Below, in pieces: positions 4,249 through 36,693 of a DNA stretch of 64,000 bases. The translations under genes were made by a program, and so were the position numbers. Location: contig JAKFUZ010000011.1 in the NCBI GenBank assembly GCA_021732445.1, positions 1 to 64,000 on the forward strand, in the 5' to 3' direction. The notes beneath the pieces were generated by a model. That model did not search any database and had not been told where the DNA came from. It saw only the letters and a program-made list of their open reading frames with translations. Numbering within the stretch: position 1 is the stretch's first letter; every line of letters starts with the position of its first letter. The stretch comes from Sphingomonas sp. (GTDB lineage Bacteria > Pseudomonadota > Alphaproteobacteria > Sphingomonadales > Sphingomonadaceae).

Positions 4249-4317
4249 GGGTCGTGTTCCTTTCAAATCAGGTTGGGGCGCGGGCCGATGCGTTGCACCG
4301 GCCCGCAAGCAATACGA

Positions 4318-4863
4318 TCAGGCCGCAATCGCCACATCGACGACCGGGAAGTCGATCTTGGTCTGGGCGACGTTGTTCATGAAGTTGGTCAGCACATTGT
4401 GCGCAACATTGCCGACGATTTCGACAATGCGGGCATCGTCAAGACCGGCGAGACGGGCTTCAGACAGATCGGCGTCGCTGACCTGACCGCGCGTTTCGAC
4501 GATACGCAGCGCAAGCGTCGCAATGGCGTTGTCGATCGCGCTTTCGCCCTTGCCCTGACGGGCAGCGCGGATGGCAGCGGGCGACAGGCCGGCACCCTTG
4601 CCGAGCAGCGTGTGTGCCGACAGGCAATAGTGGCAGCTGTTATACTGGGCGACAGCGAGCGAAACGATTTCGCGCTGTGCGGCGGTCAGAACGCCCTTGG
4701 TCAGCGCATCGGCGAAAGCGAGGTTGCCGTTCAGCACGGCGGGGGCCTGAGCGAAGGTTGCAAACAGATTGGGGACCATGCCAATCTTCGCCTTGACAGC
4801 GCCGAGGGTTGCCTGGACGCCAGTGTCAGCGGTGGCGAGTTCTACGGGGTTGATACGGGGCAT
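4318..4863 (-). CDS. Carboxymuconolactone decarboxylase / AhpD-like peroxidase-related protein
   Basis: A 181-residue protein of the carboxymuconolactone decarboxylase-like superfamily (AhpD fold). The family redox motif is visible as SCHYCLSAH, giving CxxC followed by histidine, inside an all-helical sequence (residues about 80-95). Such proteins often act as alkylhydroperoxidases, so a role against peroxides is likely but not proven. It is the first gene of a two-gene minus-strand operon. An AraC-type regulator starts 95 nt away on the opposite strand and is the obvious candidate regulator. Confidence 0.85.
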   Translation of the reverse strand: MPRINPVELATADTGVQATLGAVKAKIGMVPNLFATFAQAPAVLNGNLAFADALTKGVLTAAQREIVSLAVAQYNSCHYCLSAHTLLGKGAGLSPAAIRAARQGKGESAIDNAIATLALRIVETRGQVSDADLSEARLAGLDDARIVEIVGNVAHNVLTNFMNNVAQTKIDFPVVDVAIAA

Positions 4864-30755: not shown

Positions 30756-31781
30756 TCAGTTTGCGCCGGGCAGCATGTCGTGGCGGCGCAGCGCGTGGCG
30801 CAACTGGTCATAGCTCAGCCCGAGCGCTTCGGCCGTCGCGCGCTGGTTATAGCGCTGCTCCCCGAGCGCGCGCGTCAGCACATCGCGCTCAAACTGCGCC
30901 ACCTGATCCTTGAAATCGCCAGCATAAGCGGGCGGCGGCGGGGGCCCTGGCGCCACCATCGCGCCGGGTTGCGGGTCGGTGGGCCGGCCATGCGGTGACG
31001 GTGCCGGGCTGTAAGGCGAATGGAAGGGATCAAACTGGATCGCGTCGATCGGGCCTTCGCGCTCCCAGCGATACACGGCTCGCTCCACGACATTGCGCAG
31101 CTCGCGCACATTGCCGGGCCAGGCATAGCTTTCCAGCTCTTCGGTCGCGTGGCGGCTGAAACCGGGCCAGTCGCCCCAGCCCAGTTCGCTTGCCATCCGC
31201 CGCCCGAAATGCTCGGCAAGCACCAGCACATCGCCAGGCCGCGCGCGCAGCGGCGGCAGGGTGACGACCTCGAACGAGAGCCGGTCGAGCAAATCGGCGC
31301 GGAACTGGTTGTTCAATACCCGGTCCGGCAAATGCTCGTTGGTCGCCGCGACGATCCGCACGTCGACGCGCACTGGCCGCGACGAGCCGATGCGCGTCAC
31401 CTCGCCATATTCCACCGCGCGCAGCAGGCGTTCCTGCGCGCCCATCGACAGCGTGCCCAGCTCATCAAGAAACAACGTGCCGCGGTGCGCCTCTTCGAAC
31501 CGCCCGGTTCGGGCCTTGGTCGCGCCCGTGAAGGCGCCCGCCTCATGGCCAAACAGCTCGGCCTCGATCAGCGTTTCGGGAAGGGCTGCGCAATTCATGA
31601 TGACGAGCGCCTGGTCCCACCGGGGACTGAGGCGATGAAGGCGCTCGGCCACCAGTTCCTTGCCGGTGCCGCGCTCGCCGATGACCAGCACCGGCCGGTC
31701 AAGCGCTGCGGCGCGGCTGGCCCTTTCGAGAACATCAAGAAACTCGGTTGATTGCCCGATAACCTGTGTGGCCCGCTCCAT
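30756..31781 (-). CDS. pspF: Phage shock protein operon activator PspF
   Basis: A 341-residue sigma54-dependent activator without an N-terminal receiver domain, as in PspF. AAA+ motifs: Walker A GERGTGKE, the sigma54-contact loop GAFTGA, Walker B GTLFLDEL and the R-finger region. The C-terminal HTH is NQRATAEALGLSYDQLRHAL, separated by a proline-rich linker. ATG 31781 is used, with ATG 31799 possible. In the known system PspA binds PspF and blocks it until envelope stress occurs. It is divergent from the psp operon and its sigma54-type promoter. Confidence 0.92.
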   Translation of the reverse strand: MERATQVIGQSTEFLDVLERASRAAALDRPVLVIGERGTGKELVAERLHRLSPRWDQALVIMNCAALPETLIEAELFGHEAGAFTGATKARTGRFEEAHRGTLFLDELGTLSMGAQERLLRAVEYGEVTRIGSSRPVRVDVRIVAATNEHLPDRVLNNQFRADLLDRLSFEVVTLPPLRARPGDVLVLAEHFGRRMASELGWGDWPGFSRHATEELESYAWPGNVRELRNVVERAVYRWEREGPIDAIQFDPFHSPYSPAPSPHGRPTDPQPGAMVAPGPPPPPAYAGDFKDQVAQFERDVLTRALGEQRYNQRATAEALGLSYDQLRHALRRHDMLPGAN

Positions 31782-31800
31782 ACCCAAACTATGGCGCATT

Positions 31801-31852
31801 TTACCAATATTTGGCAACACTAATCTGAACGAGGATGACAGCCAATGTTCAG
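31801..31852. promoter_or_regulatory. Dyad elements between pspF and the sigma54 promoter
   Basis: TTACCAA-tat-TTGGCAA at 31801-31817 is a near-perfect dyad, and CTGAAC (31825-31830) faces GTTCAG (31847-31852). They lie 30-80 nt upstream of the -24/-12 element, the usual place for activator sites, so they are candidate PspF-binding sites. The first dyad also overlaps the pspF start region and could serve autoregulation. Confidence 0.45.
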
Positions 31853-31881
31853 AAATCCCCAAATTCCGCCAAAAACAAAAC

Positions 31882-31897
31882 TGGCACGGTAGCTGCA
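31882..31897 (+). promoter_or_regulatory. Sigma54 (-24/-12) promoter of the psp operon
   Basis: TGGCACGGTAGCTGCA carries GG and GC separated by exactly 10 nt and matches TGGCAC-N5-TTGCA except at one position. It is 63 nt before the first ATG of the operon and points away from pspF, matching the known PspF/sigma54 control of psp genes. Confidence 0.8.
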
Positions 31898-31959
31898 ACG
31901 CTCTGGATAACTGCCGATCGGGCAGCAATTTTGAACCACGGTTTTTGGGAGTGACTGCA

Positions 31960-32118
31960 ATGACTAACGGCTATCAATCGAATGATCCGGTCCGCAAGCT
32001 GGCCGCTTTCGCCTTCGCTTTCGCGTTCAGCGCGGTGTGTGTGCTGGGTGCGGTGGCGCCGGCGCACGTACAATCGGCGACAATGGCGGCAAGCGCTCAG
32101 CCAACGCTTGTTGCCTGA
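31960..32118 (+). CDS. Small leader membrane/secreted protein of the psp operon
   Basis: A 52-residue protein, first in the transcript from the sigma54 promoter and 91 nt before pspA. It has a polar N-terminus (MTNGYQSNDPVRKLAA), a hydrophobic stretch of about 20 residues rich in Phe/Ala/Val, and a short Ala/Gln/Ser tail. The stretch could be a membrane anchor, or a signal peptide cleaved near the histidine-containing PAHVQSA. GGGAG precedes ATG 31960 by 7 nt. I do not recognise it from characterised psp loci. Its position implies induction with PspA. Confidence 0.65.
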   Translation: MTNGYQSNDPVRKLAAFAFAFAFSAVCVLGAVAPAHVQSATMAASAQPTLVA

Positions 32119-32209
32119 CGCGATGGGCGACCGCATCAGCGGGGTGGTCGTACGCCTGGCAGAACCCGGCACCCCACCCCCCCAAACCCGCGTATTCAGG
32201 AGTAACCTC

Positions 32210-32878
32210 ATGGGCATTTTTTCGCGAACCCGAGACATCATCGCCGCCAATGTCACCGACTTGCTCGACAAGGCGGAAGACCCGGCCAAGATGATCCGCA
32301 TGATAATCCTCGAAATGGAGGAAACCCTGGTTGAAGTGCGTGCCTCTGCTGCGCGCACCATTGCTGACCAGAAGGAGATGCGGCGCCACATCGCCAAGCT
32401 GGAAAAGCTTCAGGAAAGCTGGACCGAAAAGGCCGAGCTGGCGCTGTCAAAGGATCGCGAAGACCTTGCCAAGGCGGCCCTTGTCGAGCGCCAGAAAGCG
32501 ACCGACATGTGCGACCAGCTTGGTGCCGAAATTTCGGTGCTCGACGATGCGCTGCGCCATGCCGAGGAAGACATCACCAAGTTGCAGAACAAGCTGCGCG
32601 AGGCCCGTACCCGGCAGAACTCGATCATGACCCGGCTGGAAACCGCGCACAACCGTGTGCGGATGCGCGAAATGTATGCCGGCCCCAAGGTCGAGGAGGC
32701 ATTTTCACGCTTTGAGCTGATGGAACGCCGGGCAGATGCGGTTGAGGGCCATGCCGATGCGCTGAGCCTGGGCTCTTCCAAGAAATCGCTCGAGGAGGAA
32801 ATCGCCGAGCTGAAATCGAGCGACAAGGTGGAAGCGGATCTCGCAGCGCTCAAGGCGCGCGTGAACCGCGAGAACTGA
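32210..32878 (+). CDS. pspA: Phage shock protein A
   Basis: A 222-residue PspA/IM30 family protein, almost entirely coiled coil. It begins MGIFSRTRDIIAANVTDLLD (the amphipathic helix that binds stressed membranes) and carries DPAKMIRMIILEMEE, typical of the family. It inhibits PspF in the soluble state and, as known for the family, forms membrane-protecting scaffolds. AGGAGT lies 6-7 nt before ATG 32210. pspB follows after one base. Confidence 0.95.
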   Translation: MGIFSRTRDIIAANVTDLLDKAEDPAKMIRMIILEMEETLVEVRASAARTIADQKEMRRHIAKLEKLQESWTEKAELALSKDREDLAKAALVERQKATDMCDQLGAEISVLDDALRHAEEDITKLQNKLREARTRQNSIMTRLETAHNRVRMREMYAGPKVEEAFSRFELMERRADAVEGHADALSLGSSKKSLEEEIAELKSSDKVEADLAALKARVNREN

Positions 32879-32879
32879 G

Positions 32880-33152
32880 ATGAGCGACGCAATAATCCCG
32901 ATCTTCATCTGCGCGATGTTGTTCATCGGCCTGCCGTGGCTGGTGTTCCATTACATCACCCAGTGGAAGAAGACCGGCGCGCTTACGGGCGAAGATGAAA
33001 AGTTGCTCGACGAGCTGCACTACACCGCGCGCATGCTGGAAGACCGGCTGGGCACTATCGAACGGATCATCGCCGCCGATCATCCGGATTGGAAAATCGG
33101 CAGCACCAGAGCGCCAGAGGTGCTCGACTACGACGCTAACAGGAGGAATTGA
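32880..33152 (+). CDS. pspB: Phage shock protein B
   Basis: A 90-residue PspB. One membrane helix (IIPIFICAMLFIGLPWLVFHYI, about residues 5-25) is followed by a coiled coil (ARMLEDRLGTIERIIAADHP) and a polar tail. PspB and PspC transmit envelope stress to PspA in the known system. ATG 32880 follows the pspA stop by one base. Its coiled-coil end is the template repeated in the six genes further downstream. Confidence 0.92.
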   Translation: MSDAIIPIFICAMLFIGLPWLVFHYITQWKKTGALTGEDEKLLDELHYTARMLEDRLGTIERIIAADHPDWKIGSTRAPEVLDYDANRRN

Positions 33153-33153
33153 G

Positions 33154-33531
33154 ATGAGCGGGAGCCGCACCAAATTCTATCTCGACAAGCAGAATGCCAA
33201 ATGGCTGGGTGTCTGCGCCGGGATTGCGGATTACACCGGGATTGATCCGCTGCTGGTTCGGGTGGGCGCTGTGCTGCTCACGCTTGCGACGACCGGCAAT
33301 GTCATCATCGCCTATCTCGTTATCGCCTGGCTGGCGAGCGCCAAGCCCACCGGCCTTTACGAAACGAAGGAAGACGAGCAGTTCTGGCGCGGCGTGCGGG
33401 CCAACCCGCAGCGCACCACCCGCGACGTGCGGTCCAAGTTCCGCGACATCGACCGTCGCCTGGCCGACATCGAGACGATGTACACCAGCCGCAACACGCG
33501 CCTGGCCGAAGAGATCGAAAATCTGCGCTAA
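33154..33531 (+). CDS. pspC: Phage shock protein C with added coiled-coil tail
   Basis: A 125-residue PspC-domain protein. The PspC domain (KFYLDKQNAKWLGVCAGIADYTGIDPLLVR and the following membrane helix) covers residues about 5-65. The C-terminal third is a charged helix, FRDIDRRLADIETMY and then LAEEIENLR. That end resembles the C-termini of the small genes that follow (REIDALR, REIESLR, DEIEKLR). AGGAGG precedes ATG 33154. The longer frame from 32995 overlaps pspB and is not real. Confidence 0.92.
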   Translation: MSGSRTKFYLDKQNAKWLGVCAGIADYTGIDPLLVRVGAVLLTLATTGNVIIAYLVIAWLASAKPTGLYETKEDEQFWRGVRANPQRTTRDVRSKFRDIDRRLADIETMYTSRNTRLAEEIENLR

Positions 33532-33564
33532 GCGCCGACTGCGCACACGCATCAGGAGGGATAT

Positions 33565-33855
33565 ATGAACTGGGGTATCCTGGTACCAATCGCCGCGCTT
33601 ACCGTCGGCCCGATCTGCTGGGCCTTCACCACCTGGGTCCGTGCCCGTCACGGTTATCCGCTGGAAGGCAAAAAAGGGCAGATGGTTTCGCGCGACGGTG
33701 ACCTGGCCAGCAGCCGCAAGGTCGAGCTGCTGACGAGCGAGAATGAACGGCTGGCGGGCCAGGTTTTGCGCCTCGAAGAACGGATTGCGGTGCTCGAACG
33801 CATCGCCACCGACCCGGCCGAGCGCACCGCCCGCGAAATCGACGCGCTGCGCTGA
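33565..33855 (+). CDS. Psp-array mini-protein 1 (one TM plus coiled coil)
   Basis: A 96-residue protein with an N-terminal membrane helix (residues about 3-24), a short basic/GYPLE segment and a C-terminal coiled coil reading RLEERIAVLERIATDPAE and ending REIDALR. The coiled coil matches that of PspB (LEDRLGTIERIIAAD) in spacing of hydrophobic residues. AGGAGGG precedes the ATG. It is the first of six similar genes behind pspC. I do not recognise a named family beyond the PspB likeness; a role in sensing or damping envelope stress is inference. Confidence 0.8.
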   Translation: MNWGILVPIAALTVGPICWAFTTWVRARHGYPLEGKKGQMVSRDGDLASSRKVELLTSENERLAGQVLRLEERIAVLERIATDPAERTAREIDALR

Positions 33856-33886
33856 ATTTCCAGGCATTATTGCAGGAGTTATCAAC

Positions 33887-34150
33887 ATGAACGACCCCAC
33901 GCCCTTCTTCATCATGGGCATGCTGTTCGGTGCTGGCCTGACCTTGCTGATCCAGGCTTATGGGCGGCGCAAGGTGCGCCTTGCGACTAAAACTCTGGCG
34001 ACGCCGCCGCCTGAGGTCGGCATTCTGGCGCGCGAGAATGAGCGTCAGGTCGGCCAGATTTTACGGCTGGAGGAACGAATAGCGACGCTCGAACGCATCG
34101 CCACCGACCCCGCCGAACGGGCCGCCCGCGAAATTGACGCGCTGCGCTGA
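33887..34150 (+). CDS. Psp-array mini-protein 2
   Basis: An 87-residue protein with the same plan: membrane helix at residues about 7-25, a basic stop-transfer segment (YGRRKVR) and a C-terminal coiled coil RLEERIATLERIATDPAE ending REIDALR. Its last 29 codons are close to those of mini-protein 1 also at DNA level, so the two come from a recent tandem duplication. GCAGGAG precedes the ATG. The membrane half has diverged strongly while the coiled coil is conserved, which points to the coiled coil as the shared interaction surface. Confidence 0.8.
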   Translation: MNDPTPFFIMGMLFGAGLTLLIQAYGRRKVRLATKTLATPPPEVGILARENERQVGQILRLEERIATLERIATDPAERAAREIDALR

Positions 34151-34180
34151 CCCCGGTCACTGCGCTGAAAGGAACCTGTC

Positions 34181-34498
34181 ATGACGGCTGAACAAGTGCT
34201 GCTCATTATCTTTTCCGGCATGTTTGTCGGCGTGCTGGGGATCGGCGGATGGGTTTACACCACCCGGCTGCGCATCACCAACGGTTATCCGCTGGAAACG
34301 TCCTGGGGCAAGCCGATCTATCCAAAGGCCGATCAGGAAGCGGTTGAGCGCATCAGGCTGCTCAGCCAGGAAAATGCCCAGCTTCGGGCGGAGCTTGGCG
34401 CGATCAAGGACCGGCTCATCACGGTTGAGCGCATCGTCACCGACACCGGCGCCAGCCTCGATCGTGAAATTGAGAGCCTGCGCGGCCCGGCCAACTGA
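34181..34498 (+). CDS. Psp-array mini-protein 3
   Basis: A 105-residue protein. The N-terminal helix (VLLIIFSGMFVGVLGIGGWVY) is followed by RLRITNGYPLETSWGKPIYP, which shares GYPLE with mini-protein 1, and by a longer coiled coil with LSQENAQLRAELGAIKDRLITVERIVTD, ending REIESLR. AAAGGAA precedes the ATG. The GYPLE link sequence in two members suggests a fixed membrane-proximal element. Spacing of 30 nt to the previous gene and 11 nt to the next supports one operon. Confidence 0.8.
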   Translation: MTAEQVLLIIFSGMFVGVLGIGGWVYTTRLRITNGYPLETSWGKPIYPKADQEAVERIRLLSQENAQLRAELGAIKDRLITVERIVTDTGASLDREIESLRGPAN

Positions 34499-34509
34499 GA
34501 GGACGAACG

Positions 34510-34785
34510 ATGGACAACGGCACACTAGCGTTGATGATCCCGGTGCTTGGCATAAGCTGCGGCCTGCTCGCGATTATTGGCGGGGTGTTCGTAAAGCCCA
34601 TGTTCAAGCTGCGGGAGCGGCGCCTGGAGATCGAGGCGCAGATGATTGCGGAACGCGCGGCGCAATATGCATCGGGTACGGGACGCATTGAAGAAAGGCT
34701 GCGCGTGCTGGAACGGATTGTCACCGATCGCGGCATCGACGTCGCCGACGAGATCGAAAAGCTGCGCGACGCGCCGCTCAACTGA
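34510..34785 (+). CDS. Psp-array mini-protein 4
   Basis: A 91-residue protein with a hydrophobic segment at residues about 6-28, followed by a charged helix (KLRERRLEIEAQMIAERAA) and the conserved end RIEERLRVLERIVTD then DEIEKLR. GAGAGGAC precedes the ATG. The linker helix between membrane and conserved end is longer than in mini-proteins 2 and 5. No catalytic residues or cysteines typical of enzymes are present apart from one Cys in the membrane part. Confidence 0.78.
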   Translation: MDNGTLALMIPVLGISCGLLAIIGGVFVKPMFKLRERRLEIEAQMIAERAAQYASGTGRIEERLRVLERIVTDRGIDVADEIEKLRDAPLN

Positions 34786-34809
34786 AACGATATTTGGGGA
34801 GCACGGTAG

Positions 34810-35055
34810 ATGGGTTTCGGAACAGCAATGGTAACAATCGTGGCGATCATCATGGTCGCGCGGGTGCTCAGGGCAAAATACGAGGCCGAAGGCCGCGGTC
34901 GCCGCAACTTTCTGCCAGAACGCGACACGAGCACCCTGGAACGCGAAGTCAGCGTGCTGAAGGAACGGATCGCCGTTCTGGAACGCCTTGCAACCGAAGA
35001 TAACACCGCCGCGCAGCTCGATCGCGAGATCGCCAAGCTGCGTGACCGGACTTGA
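34810..35055 (+). CDS. Psp-array mini-protein 5
   Basis: An 81-residue protein with a short N-terminal membrane helix (residues about 5-20, ending in VLRAKYEAEGRGRR) and the coiled coil LEREVSVLKERIAVLERLATED, ending REIAKLRDRT. GGGGAG precedes the ATG. It keeps the heptad pattern and the final REI-x-KLR of its neighbours. Membrane-anchored with the coiled coil most likely in the cytoplasm, judging from the positive residues right after the helix. Confidence 0.78.
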   Translation: MGFGTAMVTIVAIIMVARVLRAKYEAEGRGRRNFLPERDTSTLEREVSVLKERIAVLERLATEDNTAAQLDREIAKLRDRT

Positions 35056-35069
35056 GTGGAGCGCAGACC

Positions 35070-35309
35070 ATGATCGATACGAATATGTACATGACGCTTG
35101 CCGCAACCGCGCTTGCCGCGCTTGGCCTGGTCACTTTTGCAGCGCTCAGTGGCTGGCGCGGCTGGCTGCGGCTCAAGCAGCAGGAGCTCGCCGCGCGCCG
35201 CGAAGACTCGGCGCCTGCCATGCCCAGCGCCAGCGCGCGCATCGAAATCGCTGACTTGAAGGAGCGGATCCGCAAGCTTGAAGCAATCGCCGCCGGGGTG
35301 GACCTTTGA
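35070..35309 (+). CDS. Psp-array mini-protein 6
   Basis: A 79-residue protein, last of the series. Its membrane helix (TLAATALAALGLVTFAALSGW) is followed by RLKQQELAARR and a short coiled coil IEIADLKERIRKLEAIAAG. The final REI-x-x-LR present in the other members is missing, so it is the most reduced copy. ATG 35070 has GGAG upstream; an in-frame TTG at 35052 is less likely. A hairpin follows its stop codon directly. Confidence 0.75.
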   Translation: MIDTNMYMTLAATALAALGLVTFAALSGWRGWLRLKQQELAARREDSAPAMPSASARIEIADLKERIRKLEAIAAGVDL

Positions 35310-35310
35310 T

Positions 35311-35330
35311 GCCCGCTGCTGCTAGCGGGC
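35311..35330 (+). terminator. Hairpin at the end of the psp array
   Basis: GCCCGCT-gctgct-AGCGGGC is a perfect 7-bp stem starting two bases after the last array gene and ending four bases before the sufE ATG. It may terminate or attenuate transcription, and it also lies where the sufE ribosome-binding site should be. Confidence 0.55.
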
Positions 35331-35334
35331 GGGG

Positions 35335-35787
35335 ATGACCGATACCCCGCCTGCCCCCCCGCTGCCTGCCTCGCCACCCGTCTCGCTGGCCGATGTTTGC
35401 GACGAATATGCAGCACTTGATGCCGATGACCGCTACCGGTTGCTGATTGACCTCGGCCGGGCGCTTGCGCCAATGCCCGAGCCGCTCAAGACCGAGGCAA
35501 CGCTCGTGCGGGGATGTTCGGCCGCTGTGTGGGTTTATCCAACCCAGGGTGCCGATGGCCGGCTGCATTTTCTGGCTGACAGCAATGCCGCGATAACCAA
35601 GGGGATTATCGCGCTGGTCCTGCTGGTTGTTGCAGGCAAATCGGCAGCCGAGATCGGCGCGACCGACATCGCCGGCGCTCTGGCGCCCTTTGACCTCAGG
35701 AACCAGCTCAGCTCCAACCGGACGCAAGGGATCCCCAACATGATCGCGCTCATCCAGCAAACGGCAGGGCGGCTGGCAGCGGCATAG
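35335..35787 (+). CDS. sufE: SufE family cysteine desulfuration protein
   Basis: A 150-residue SufE-type protein that accepts persulfide sulfur from a cysteine desulfurase for Fe-S cluster building. The acceptor cysteine lies in VRGCSAAVWV (about residue 61), and the family's Asp-rich start (DDRYRLLIDLGRALAPMP) and NRTQGIPNM end are clear. The desulfurases at 50.6-52.8 kb are possible partners. The usual suf operon is not adjacent. A hairpin covers the region just before its start codon. Confidence 0.9.
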   Translation: MTDTPPAPPLPASPPVSLADVCDEYAALDADDRYRLLIDLGRALAPMPEPLKTEATLVRGCSAAVWVYPTQGADGRLHFLADSNAAITKGIIALVLLVVAGKSAAEIGATDIAGALAPFDLRNQLSSNRTQGIPNMIALIQQTAGRLAAA

Positions 35788-35809
35788 CGGGTTTTCCAGC
35801 CCGGCGGGG

Positions 35810-36160
35810 TCACTCTGCGGCAGGCAGGCGCCGCTGACAGGTATCGGGCGGTTGCAGACCCAGCGCCTCGGCAATTTTGGCGAGGTCAGTACCCGCCAGC
35901 GCGCGGTGGCACCTATGAGGATGGCGCGCGTTGACGACGGCAACGCCGCCGCGCGGGCACATGCCGAGGCATTTCACCTCGACAACGCCCAGCGAATTCC
36001 TGGCAAAGCGCCTGATACCCAGATGGCGCCGCAGTGCCGTCGCCAGCCGCTCGCGGTTTCTGGCGCCAAAGCCCCTGCCCAGCCGGGTCGAGCATGTCGC
36101 ACACACCAGGATGGCGGTGGACCAATGCGCCTTGACGTACGTCTCTAGTCCGGCTGCCAT
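35810..36160 (-). CDS. Thioredoxin-like (2Fe-2S) ferredoxin domain protein
   Basis: A 116-residue protein of the thioredoxin-fold 2Fe-2S type. Four likely cluster ligands are seen: two in LVCATCSTRLGRG and two in CLGMCPRGG. Such proteins occur in cobalamin and hydrogenase contexts and as stand-alone redox carriers; nothing around it points to a specific partner. Its start overlaps the J-domain gene's end by 16 nt on the same strand, so the two are coupled. Confidence 0.82.
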   Translation of the reverse strand: MAAGLETYVKAHWSTAILVCATCSTRLGRGFGARNRERLATALRRHLGIRRFARNSLGVVEVKCLGMCPRGGVAVVNARHPHRCHRALAGTDLAKIAEALGLQPPDTCQRRLPAAE

Positions 36161-36693
36161 TGCCGGTTTTCCTCAGCCACGCGCAACACATCATACGCCG
36201 CCTGAATCGCCTGAAAACGCACCGCTGCATCCTTGTCGCCGGGGCGCACATCGGGATGGTTGGCCTTGGCAAGGCGGCGCCAGGCGGCGCGCACCGCGTC
36301 GAAATCGGCATCGGTTTCAAGCTCAAGCACATCGAGCGCGCGCAATTCGTCGCGGCTGCGGGAGCCATCTCCCGGTCCTGCCCAGCCATAGTGTTTGGCT
36401 TCGCTATAGCCCGATGTGTCGCCGGTTTCCTCCGCCTCGCGCGCGGCCGCCTCTTCGGCGCTCAGCCCTTCGAAATAATTCCAGCCGCGATTATATTCGC
36501 CGGCATGGCGCTCGCAGAAATACCAGCGCTCGGGGCTGTTGGGGGATTTTGGCGCCGGGCAATTGCCAGGCTCGGCGCACCCGTGGCGATCACACAGGCG
36601 CACGGTTATGGCTTCGCGGCCGCTGCCATAGCCGCGCCAGCGGGGAAACCCCCAGTCAACTGATCTCGTTGTTCGCGCCATCATGGTTGACAT
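36145..36693 (-). CDS. J-domain (DnaJ-like) protein
   Basis: A protein of about 182 residues with a C-terminal J domain (residues about 118-178) that carries the HPD motif in KANHPDVRPGDK. A DnaK partner is implied. The N-terminal part has cysteines in RLCDRHGCAEPGNCP and FCERHAGEYNRGWNYF that may bind metal. Starts at 36693, 36684 and 36681 are all in frame. The much longer frame to 37128 runs through the RNase P RNA gene and is not real. Confidence 0.85.
   Translation of the reverse strand: MSTMMARTTRSVDWGFPRWRGYGSGREAITVRLCDRHGCAEPGNCPAPKSPNSPERWYFCERHAGEYNRGWNYFEGLSAEEAAAREAEETGDTSGYSEAKHYGWAGPGDGSRSRDELRALDVLELETDADFDAVRAAWRRLAKANHPDVRPGDKDAAVRFQAIQAAYDVLRVAEENRQWQPD

Follow-up and report, generated by a model that had tools for sequence, protein, structure and literature searches.

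A putative expansion of the PspB/PspC module: an array of small membrane-protein genes behind pspABC in Sphingomonas and its family

Introduction

In Escherichia coli, PspB and PspC meet through membrane segments, and interaction with PspA requires the leucine-zipper region of PspC, for which a periplasmic or a dual location is discussed (PMC3068692). In Yersinia, the C-terminal cytoplasmic domain of PspC binds PspA in the ON state, whereupon PspF is released; PspBC forms a complex with mislocalised secretins and is sufficient against their toxicity (PMC5596341). The present work deals with a 64,000-nucleotide stretch of Sphingomonas sp. DNA (assembly GCA_021732445.1, contig JAKFUZ010000011.1, positions 1 to 64,000), hereafter the window, in which six small genes, M1-M6, follow pspC at positions 33565-35309. 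The switch formed by the tails of PspC, PspB and PspA is reportedly the subject of a Yersinia study by Flores-Kim and Darwin from 2015.

We read the array, with about an even chance of being right, as an expansion of the PspB/PspC module peculiar to one family, which would provide extra membrane anchors or docking sites for PspA. Its mini-proteins share with PspB (PF06667/TIGR02976) the small size, the single N-terminal transmembrane (TM) helix, the position behind pspA and a predicted cytoplasmic helical C-terminus with the motif [RK]-h-x-x-h-E-x-h, and some homologous mini-proteins match the PspB model along both TM helix and tail. The members in the window, however, score far below the family cut-offs, the D/E-x-P-x-W ending of PspB is replaced by TD...EI..LR in most of M1-M5, and several paralogous classes stand where PspB has one gene. 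The C-terminal helix of PspC (TIGR02978) carries a collinear motif, R-h-x-x-h-E-x-h-h-T-[SD]...h-x-x-E-I-x-x-L, whereas M1-M6 have a simple TM anchor in place of the PspC domain (PF04024), which was matched in none of the six.

Other additions to psp operons have been described. PspD, PspE and PspG are small accessory proteins of the enterobacterial psp regulon (PMC3068692, PMC9239133); in Pfam and NCBIfam searches up to an expectation value (E) of 1, none of them matched M1-M6, the HMMER filters dropping most weak matches. The preliminary description of the window named these three as the additions of known psp operons, which was not fully right: 'PspB duplicates' in psp operons are mentioned in one clause of the accessible text of Ravi et al. 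2024 (PMC11237479), with AOL22920.1 as the example. Like the array, and like locus L211 described below, they are extra PspB-like genes within the operon, but the clause comes without an array, a family distribution, paralogue classes or an analysis of tails, to which the supplements may add. The main texts of PMC11237479 and PMC9239133, taken without supplements, contain no word beginning with 'sphingomon'. M6 weakly matched PspM of Actinobacteria (NF047839) at E 0.0034, scoring 17.3 bits where the cut-off is 80. This is a larger membrane protein of another phage shock protein (PSP) system, with a profile of 220 positions (PMC11237479), and the match was taken as a chance one.

The array in the window

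The genome carrying the window is 2.84 Mb in size, and the window is located on its contig C15. The gene order is pspF (minus strand), a sigma54 site, a gene for a 52-residue microprotein, pspA, pspB, pspC, M1-M6 and a sufE-like gene. M1 (33565-33855, plus strand as all six; 96 residues) consists of a TM helix, an HGYPLE linker and a PspB/PspC-like tail. M2 (33887-34150, 87 residues) has a TM half unlike that of M1 and nearly the same tail (84% identity over 90 nt); genes of this type are rare (9 of the 80 named loci defined below). M3 (34181-34498, 105 residues) joins a TM helix through an invariant GYPL/WG/YP linker to a long tail helix. M4 (34510-34785, 91 residues) and M5 (34810-35055, 81 residues) each have a TM helix, followed by the tail AAQYA...VLERIVTD...DEI..LR in the former and LKERIAVLERLAT..LDREI..LR in the latter. 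M6 (35070-35309) has 79 residues from its ATG, or 85 from an in-frame TTG at 35052, and combines a TM and an amphipathic helix with a near-invariant RIEIADLKERIRKLEAIAAGVDL tail.

From the pspC stop through M6, the intergenic gaps are 33, 31, 30, 11, 24 and 14 nt, and AGGA/GGAG-like sequences lie upstream of each of the six genes. The positions, sizes, gaps of 11-33 nt, motifs and individual ribosome-binding sites reported in the preliminary description were thus reproduced, as was its single N-terminal membrane helix per protein, in so far as a hydrophobic segment near the N-terminus from which such a helix is predicted occurs in all six. It was also right that five members carry [RD]EI-x-x-LR at or near the end: M1 and M2 end in REIDALR, while REIESLR in M3, DEIEKLR in M4 and REIAKLR in M5 stand 3-5 residues short of the C-terminus. 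M6, ending in KLEAIAAGVDL, is the exception.

Distribution and linkage to psp genes

In a survey of 147 genomes of the order, the GTDB family to which the window belongs has M6 in 62 of its 64 genomes (25 of 26 genera). The other families of the order gave one marginal match among 83 genomes (G131), which lies inside a 555-residue frame and was discarded as a chance match. PspB is present in the same 62 family genomes, the two lists being identical, and in 72 of the 83 others. Ten psp loci out of these 72 were examined; none contains the array, though all ten have pspABC. A single extra PspB-like gene stands behind pspC in L211, from another family of Sphingomonadales. The spread of M6 and the ten array-free loci make the array look like an innovation of one family.

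Within the genus, M1 occurs in 57 of 61 Sphingomonas genomes. Three of the misses (G005, G020, G060) have M4-M5-M6 behind pspC (L252-L254), and the fourth, G007, is 84% complete and has no PspA match. All 20 same-genus loci with the best M1 matches contain the array, with 3 to 7 mini-genes, the locus counted with three running off its contig. A further set, the 80 named loci from Sphingomonas, Sphingobium, Hephaestia and metagenome-assembled genomes (MAGs), comprises the best 80 of 469 confirmed stretches fetched through M6 and contains M6 by construction; 78 of them span pspC to M6, the other two being short contigs. Hidden Markov models (HMMs) detected three mini-genes in 3 of these 78 loci, four in 37, five in 30 and six in 8, with a median array gap of 26 nt. 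The number six from the preliminary description is therefore correct for this genome; elsewhere the array holds 3-6 genes by HMM, and seven in L037 and L221. In one draft MAG (L131, at about 4268-4700, on the same contig as L038), the N- and C-terminal parts of M4 lie in different frames, possibly through a sequencing error.

A spread of the array over the whole class was considered and rejected: profile surveys of 240 genomes each (M1/M3 and M5 profiles) speak against it, the matches being three genomes of the window's family and one (G385) of another alphaproteobacterial family, f153, besides short segments of long frames in other genomes. All 13 genomes sampled from f153 carry an M5-like gene, against a background of 60 genomes in its order, of which 13 have it. 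Among the f153 loci inspected (L158, L244-L249, L242), these genes lie away from psp except in L242; a second small gene precedes the M5-like gene in four of the eight (L158, L244, L247, L248), and in L158 the M5-like gene adjoins a gene taken by eye for dut. The array was also considered as a feature of mobile elements, and no sign of this appeared in virus and plasmid searches. The search of viral contigs with M1 gave no relative, and that of plasmids with M3 gave one record, an 880-kb Sphingomonas replicon with the whole psp locus.

The array is closely tied to psp genes. M6 lies on the same strand, 989-2637 bp behind pspB, in 56 of the 62 genomes. In all of the remaining six (five of genus g12, and G194) it is found in a second locus (L148, L195-L198, L210) containing only pspA, a divergent pspC and M6, without pspB or other mini-genes; the main psp operon of these genomes, which lacks M6, holds three to six mini-genes. 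Therefore, M6 follows the PspA-PspC pair when the loci split, and the view of the preliminary description that these genes belong with psp is supported, M6 being linked either to pspB or to the second pspA-pspC.

Two genomes of the same family without M6, G112 and G204, have lost pspB too and keep pspA-pspC with M4- and M5-type genes. The pspC of G112 (L250, 4622-4888) ends after the membrane domain, and no tail was found in any frame before M4; the M4- and M5-type genes of this one genome keep their tails despite the tail-less PspC. Consequently, mini-proteins can persist without PspB and in one genome even without the PspC tail.

Tails, membrane segments and predicted structure

The tails of M3, M4 and M5 align with that of M1 at hhalign probabilities of 98.9-99.1. 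Against profiles of the family's own PspC tails, M1, M3, M4 and M5 reached 89.1, 95.5, 84.3 and 86.0, and against its own PspB 52.3, 85.3, 68.6 and 33.4, so that PspC is the closer of the two for all four. With outgroup profiles, the respective values were 80.5, 87.7, 39.9 and 73.8 for PspC tails and 81.7, 48.3, 85.0 and 83.7 for PspB; here PspB is closer for M4 and M5 and about equal to PspC for M1. Reversed controls in the PspB comparisons gave at most 6.2. The tail of M6 aligns with M5 at 89.8. Of the PspB-like character ascribed to all six, a resemblance of the tails to both PspB and PspC was seen for M1 and M3-M5; M6 is not demonstrably PspB-like.

In the order survey, the PF06667 cut-off of 25.6 was passed by an M5-type gene (L221, G150; 32.8 bits) and an M4-type gene (L222, G201; 27.2 bits). 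Among 22 mini-proteins from other genera chosen by us (19 of 64 listed and 3 more), the NCBIfam PspB model matches 10 and the PspC model 9, all below cut-off; these were the most frequent matches, and the Pfam PspB model matches 2 at E<0.01. The best NCBIfam PspB match (8.1e-8) covers residues 4-67, TM helix included, and the best score among the matches listed is 32.4 bits against a cut-off of 51.7.

In a tree of the tails (146 rows), M3, M6, PspB and PspC each form a single group with support of 100/99 or better, in an alignment of few columns for which the bootstrap had not settled. M1, M4 and M5 are not cleanly separated, their labels being best HMM matches and thus approximate. Such distinct types, found for M3 and M6 over many genera, together with a tail grammar common to differing TM and linker types, would suit a combinatorial sensor, in which mixed coiled coils of mini-proteins would respond to different membrane states and pass the signal on to PspA, as the preliminary description supposed. 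Homogenisation of M1 tails at third codon positions within genomes, with M4 (p 0.0015) and M5 (0 of 2000 permutations), points the same way; the effect is slight and may partly be caused by base composition, though it is absent from the M3 and PspC comparisons (no more than 22 loci had a recognisable PspC motif). Amino-acid covariation between tails within genomes was not found, however (p 0.10-1.0), and a number and kind of mini-genes varying from 3 to 7 would be odd for a dedicated stoichiometric sensor. We consider a sensor of this kind rather unlikely.

The array tail was met once outside the array. In G030, a 128-residue zinc-ribbon-like protein without a clear TM segment (L194, C34:1637-2020) carries it near the C-terminus as LQERVATLETIATDPGERTSREIESLR. 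The full fusion occurs in 1 of 61 genomes, other matches being to the tail alone or the zinc ribbon alone; it was therefore treated as an isolated case.

The two halves of the proteins evolve at different rates. Identity among orthologues is 0.32-0.57 over the first 28 residues and 0.66-0.84 over the last 32 (0.84 for the tail of PspC itself), which bears out the earlier statement that the membrane parts differ while the coiled coils are conserved. Medians of the ratio of nonsynonymous to synonymous substitution rates (dN/dS) for orthologues of M1 and M3-M6 are 0.31-0.53, compared with 0.22 for pspA, 0.34 for pspB and 0.33 for pspC, and show coding constraint at the level of the sequences. Because of these medians and the recurrence across the family, the array is better than chance.

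The strongest rival to the docking-site reading takes the mini-proteins for an effector array by analogy with PspBC and mislocalised secretins: diversified guards of the inner membrane, whose variable TM segments would engage mis-inserted proteins while the tails hold them to PspB/PspC. The TM halves do diverge fastest, as if meeting varied targets, and in enterobacteria PspBC protect from mislocalised secretins independently of PspA. But hydrophobic anchors drift anyway under weak sequence constraint, and the gene-wide dN/dS medians give no sign of positive selection. An effector role thus appears improbable, though it deserves more weight than the sensor.

As to the topology, K/R are commoner after than before the TM segment in 98-100% of M1-M6 sequences, as in PspB, and a single TM helix with the N-terminus out and the C-terminus in is predicted. 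AlphaFold2 models contain helices at 4-46 and 54-75 for M6 (mean predicted local distance difference test, pLDDT, 88; predicted template modelling score, pTM, 0.44) and at 3-34 and 51-100 for M3 (mean pLDDT 80, pTM 0.35), with the invariant GYPL, WG and YP in the loop of the latter. As the pTM values are low, only the helices of the models are to be trusted. A profile search of the PDB gave one weak unrelated match and a Foldseek search with the M6 model gave none, both being uninformative for simple helices.

Proposed function

The docking-site reading would work as follows. A PspF/sigma54 promoter before pspA would yield one transcript for PspA, PspB, PspC and some 3-7 single-TM proteins, each predicted to be anchored with the N-terminus out and to show its helical tail to the cytoplasm. 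The tails of M1-M5 and the C-terminal helices of PspC and PspB appear to be related, and in enterobacteria the PspC C-terminus captures PspA in the ON state and frees PspF; by this analogy, the mini-proteins would most likely be additional membrane anchors. That many simple anchors encoded in the psp locus carry PspC-like tails suggests extra docking posts for PspA or PspB/PspC. Mini-proteins may bind PspA, PspB or PspC through the tail, so that after induction more docking sites for PspA would be available at the stressed membrane, and the differing membrane and linker segments may correspond to differing membrane surroundings or partners. Of all the mini-proteins, M6, whose invariant tail sets it apart, probably has the closest tie to the PspA-PspC core.

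A more far-reaching version, which we offer tentatively and regard as less probable than the docking sites themselves, is that nearly all members of the window's GTDB family, Sphingomonadaceae in the wide sense, rebuilt the two-component PspB/PspC sensor as a modular array. It would consist of a common PspA-engaging tail under changing TM/linker heads, induced together from a single PspF/sigma54 promoter. M6 would serve specifically as the PspA-PspC link, two further microproteins would belong to the array, and it would be able to replace PspB and even, in G112, the PspC tail.

The promoter signals agree in part. In the window, the sigma54 (-24/-12) promoter-like site TGGCACGGTAGCTGCA (31882-31897, plus strand) has one mismatch to TGGCACGNNNNTTGCW and is the only 1-mismatch match to this pattern in the window, 2-mismatch matches occurring at chance frequency. 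Of the 78 named loci, 61 have a relaxed sigma54 pattern in the 450 nt before pspA, where shuffles gave 0.14 on average and at most 1. In a scan of 31500-36500, no terminator-like site turned up on the plus strand from pspA to M6. The pattern fits a single PspF-driven operon without proving it. An array at this place, behind pspABC in a seemingly autoregulated operon, and with tails similar to that of PspC, might also encode dosage decoys or brakes that rival PspC in binding PspA and so end the induced response, with no part in sensing. This would leave the distinct classes and the pairing of M6 with the second pspA-pspC unexplained, and we hold it to be quite unlikely.

Several observations weigh against extra docking sites related to PspB and PspC. 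None of the six window proteins passes a PspB or PspC family cut-off, and the M6 tail reached at most 10.6 against PspB and PspC tails (outgroup PspB 2.7). Composition can make short helical tails resemble one another: the reversed M3 tail scored 30.3 against outgroup and 56.6 against own PspC tails, and M5 scored 18.7 against the reversed PspC tail, the remaining reversed controls staying below 12. The relaxed sigma54 pattern is missing from 17 of the 78 loci; no sigma54 site lies inside the arrays of these 78, a count that is uninformative at a chance expectation of 0.2; and a weak sigma70-like match where M4 begins (34511-34538) is a candidate internal promoter (four sigma70-like matches in 5 kb, 1.2 expected). 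As G112 and G204 keep mini-genes in the absence of PspB and M6, PspB is not an obligatory partner. Finally, the M5-like gene of f153 stands away from pspA in 12 of 13 genomes and within 5 kb of it only in G491; homologues away from psp loci, which the preliminary description had named as evidence against its proposal, thus exist in part.

The failed cut-offs, the M6 tail that fits neither PspB nor PspC, the f153 genes away from psp and the one reversed control at 30-57 would be expected if the mini-proteins were unrelated small envelope proteins with nothing but operon membership and coiled-coil composition in common with PspB/PspC. This is very improbable, since the profile similarity of M1 and M3-M5 exceeds the reversed controls in nearly all comparisons, some relatives match the PspB model over TM helix and tail, and the operon linkage is tight.

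As far as seen, what is new is the scale of the array, its near-universality in one family, the ordered paralogue types and the common tail, as well as the tie of M6 to pspA-pspC and the two further microproteins. Searches for psp together with Sphingomonadales, Sphingomonas, Novosphingobium, Sphingomonadaceae, Erythrobacter and Sphingopyxis returned no title or beginning of an abstract on these genes, most subscription journals being outside their scope. In NZ_CP155749.1, three mini-proteins and the microprotein before pspA are annotated 'hypothetical protein', and for such genes, several per genome, the docking-site reading supplies a working hypothesis. The array bears on how PspB/PspC sense membrane trouble and hand PspA over: one bacterial family multiplied the seemingly relevant tail on different anchors and kept several copies as distinct classes. 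The reduced versions (pspA-pspC-M6, and in G112 pspA, tail-less pspC, M4 and M5) are ready-made minimal systems, and with such natural variants the PspA-binding part and the role of the TM helix could be identified.

Neighbouring genes and further microproteins

The psp genes of the window are readily assigned. On the plus strand, pspA (32210-32878) matches PF04012 (E 2.8e-38), pspB (32880-33152) PF06667 (5.2e-24) and TIGR02976 (8.7e-20), and pspC (33154-33531) PF04024 (2.8e-16) and TIGR02978 (3.9e-33), the PspC C-terminus, RLADIETMYTSRNTRLAEEIENLR, being collinear with the mini-protein tails. The divergent open reading frame at 30756-31799 on the minus strand, whose start codon is uncertain (an ATG near 31781 or the one at 31799), encodes a sigma54 enhancer-binding activator; the name pspF rests on its similar position and on the gene so annotated in NZ_CP155749.1, and homologues are divergent at the same place in most loci. 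The sufE/csdE-like gene (35335-35787, plus strand; TIGR03391, 9.6e-28, below cut-off) is the usual downstream neighbour, found there in most loci, and is probably outside the function of the array.

Between the sigma54 site and pspA lies a gene for a signal-peptide-like, Ala-rich microprotein of 52 residues (31960-32118, plus strand), inside an open reading frame. By a heuristic search, candidates of 36-70 residues were found at this place in 79 of 117 loci, 72 of the 79 ending in Ala; three of the 79, perhaps chance matches, belong to outgroup loci. The microprotein also precedes the second pspA copy in L148, L198 and L210, and NZ_CP155749.1 has a hypothetical coding sequence annotated at its place. 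The second, a conserved DRPxRR TM microprotein of 38-46 residues, is absent from the window, where the M4-M5 gap is 24 nt. Among the 80 named loci (L060-L139), 43 have it; it fills 43 of 47 array gaps longer than 90 nt and usually stands behind M4 and before M5, where 38 of the 40 long gaps contain it.

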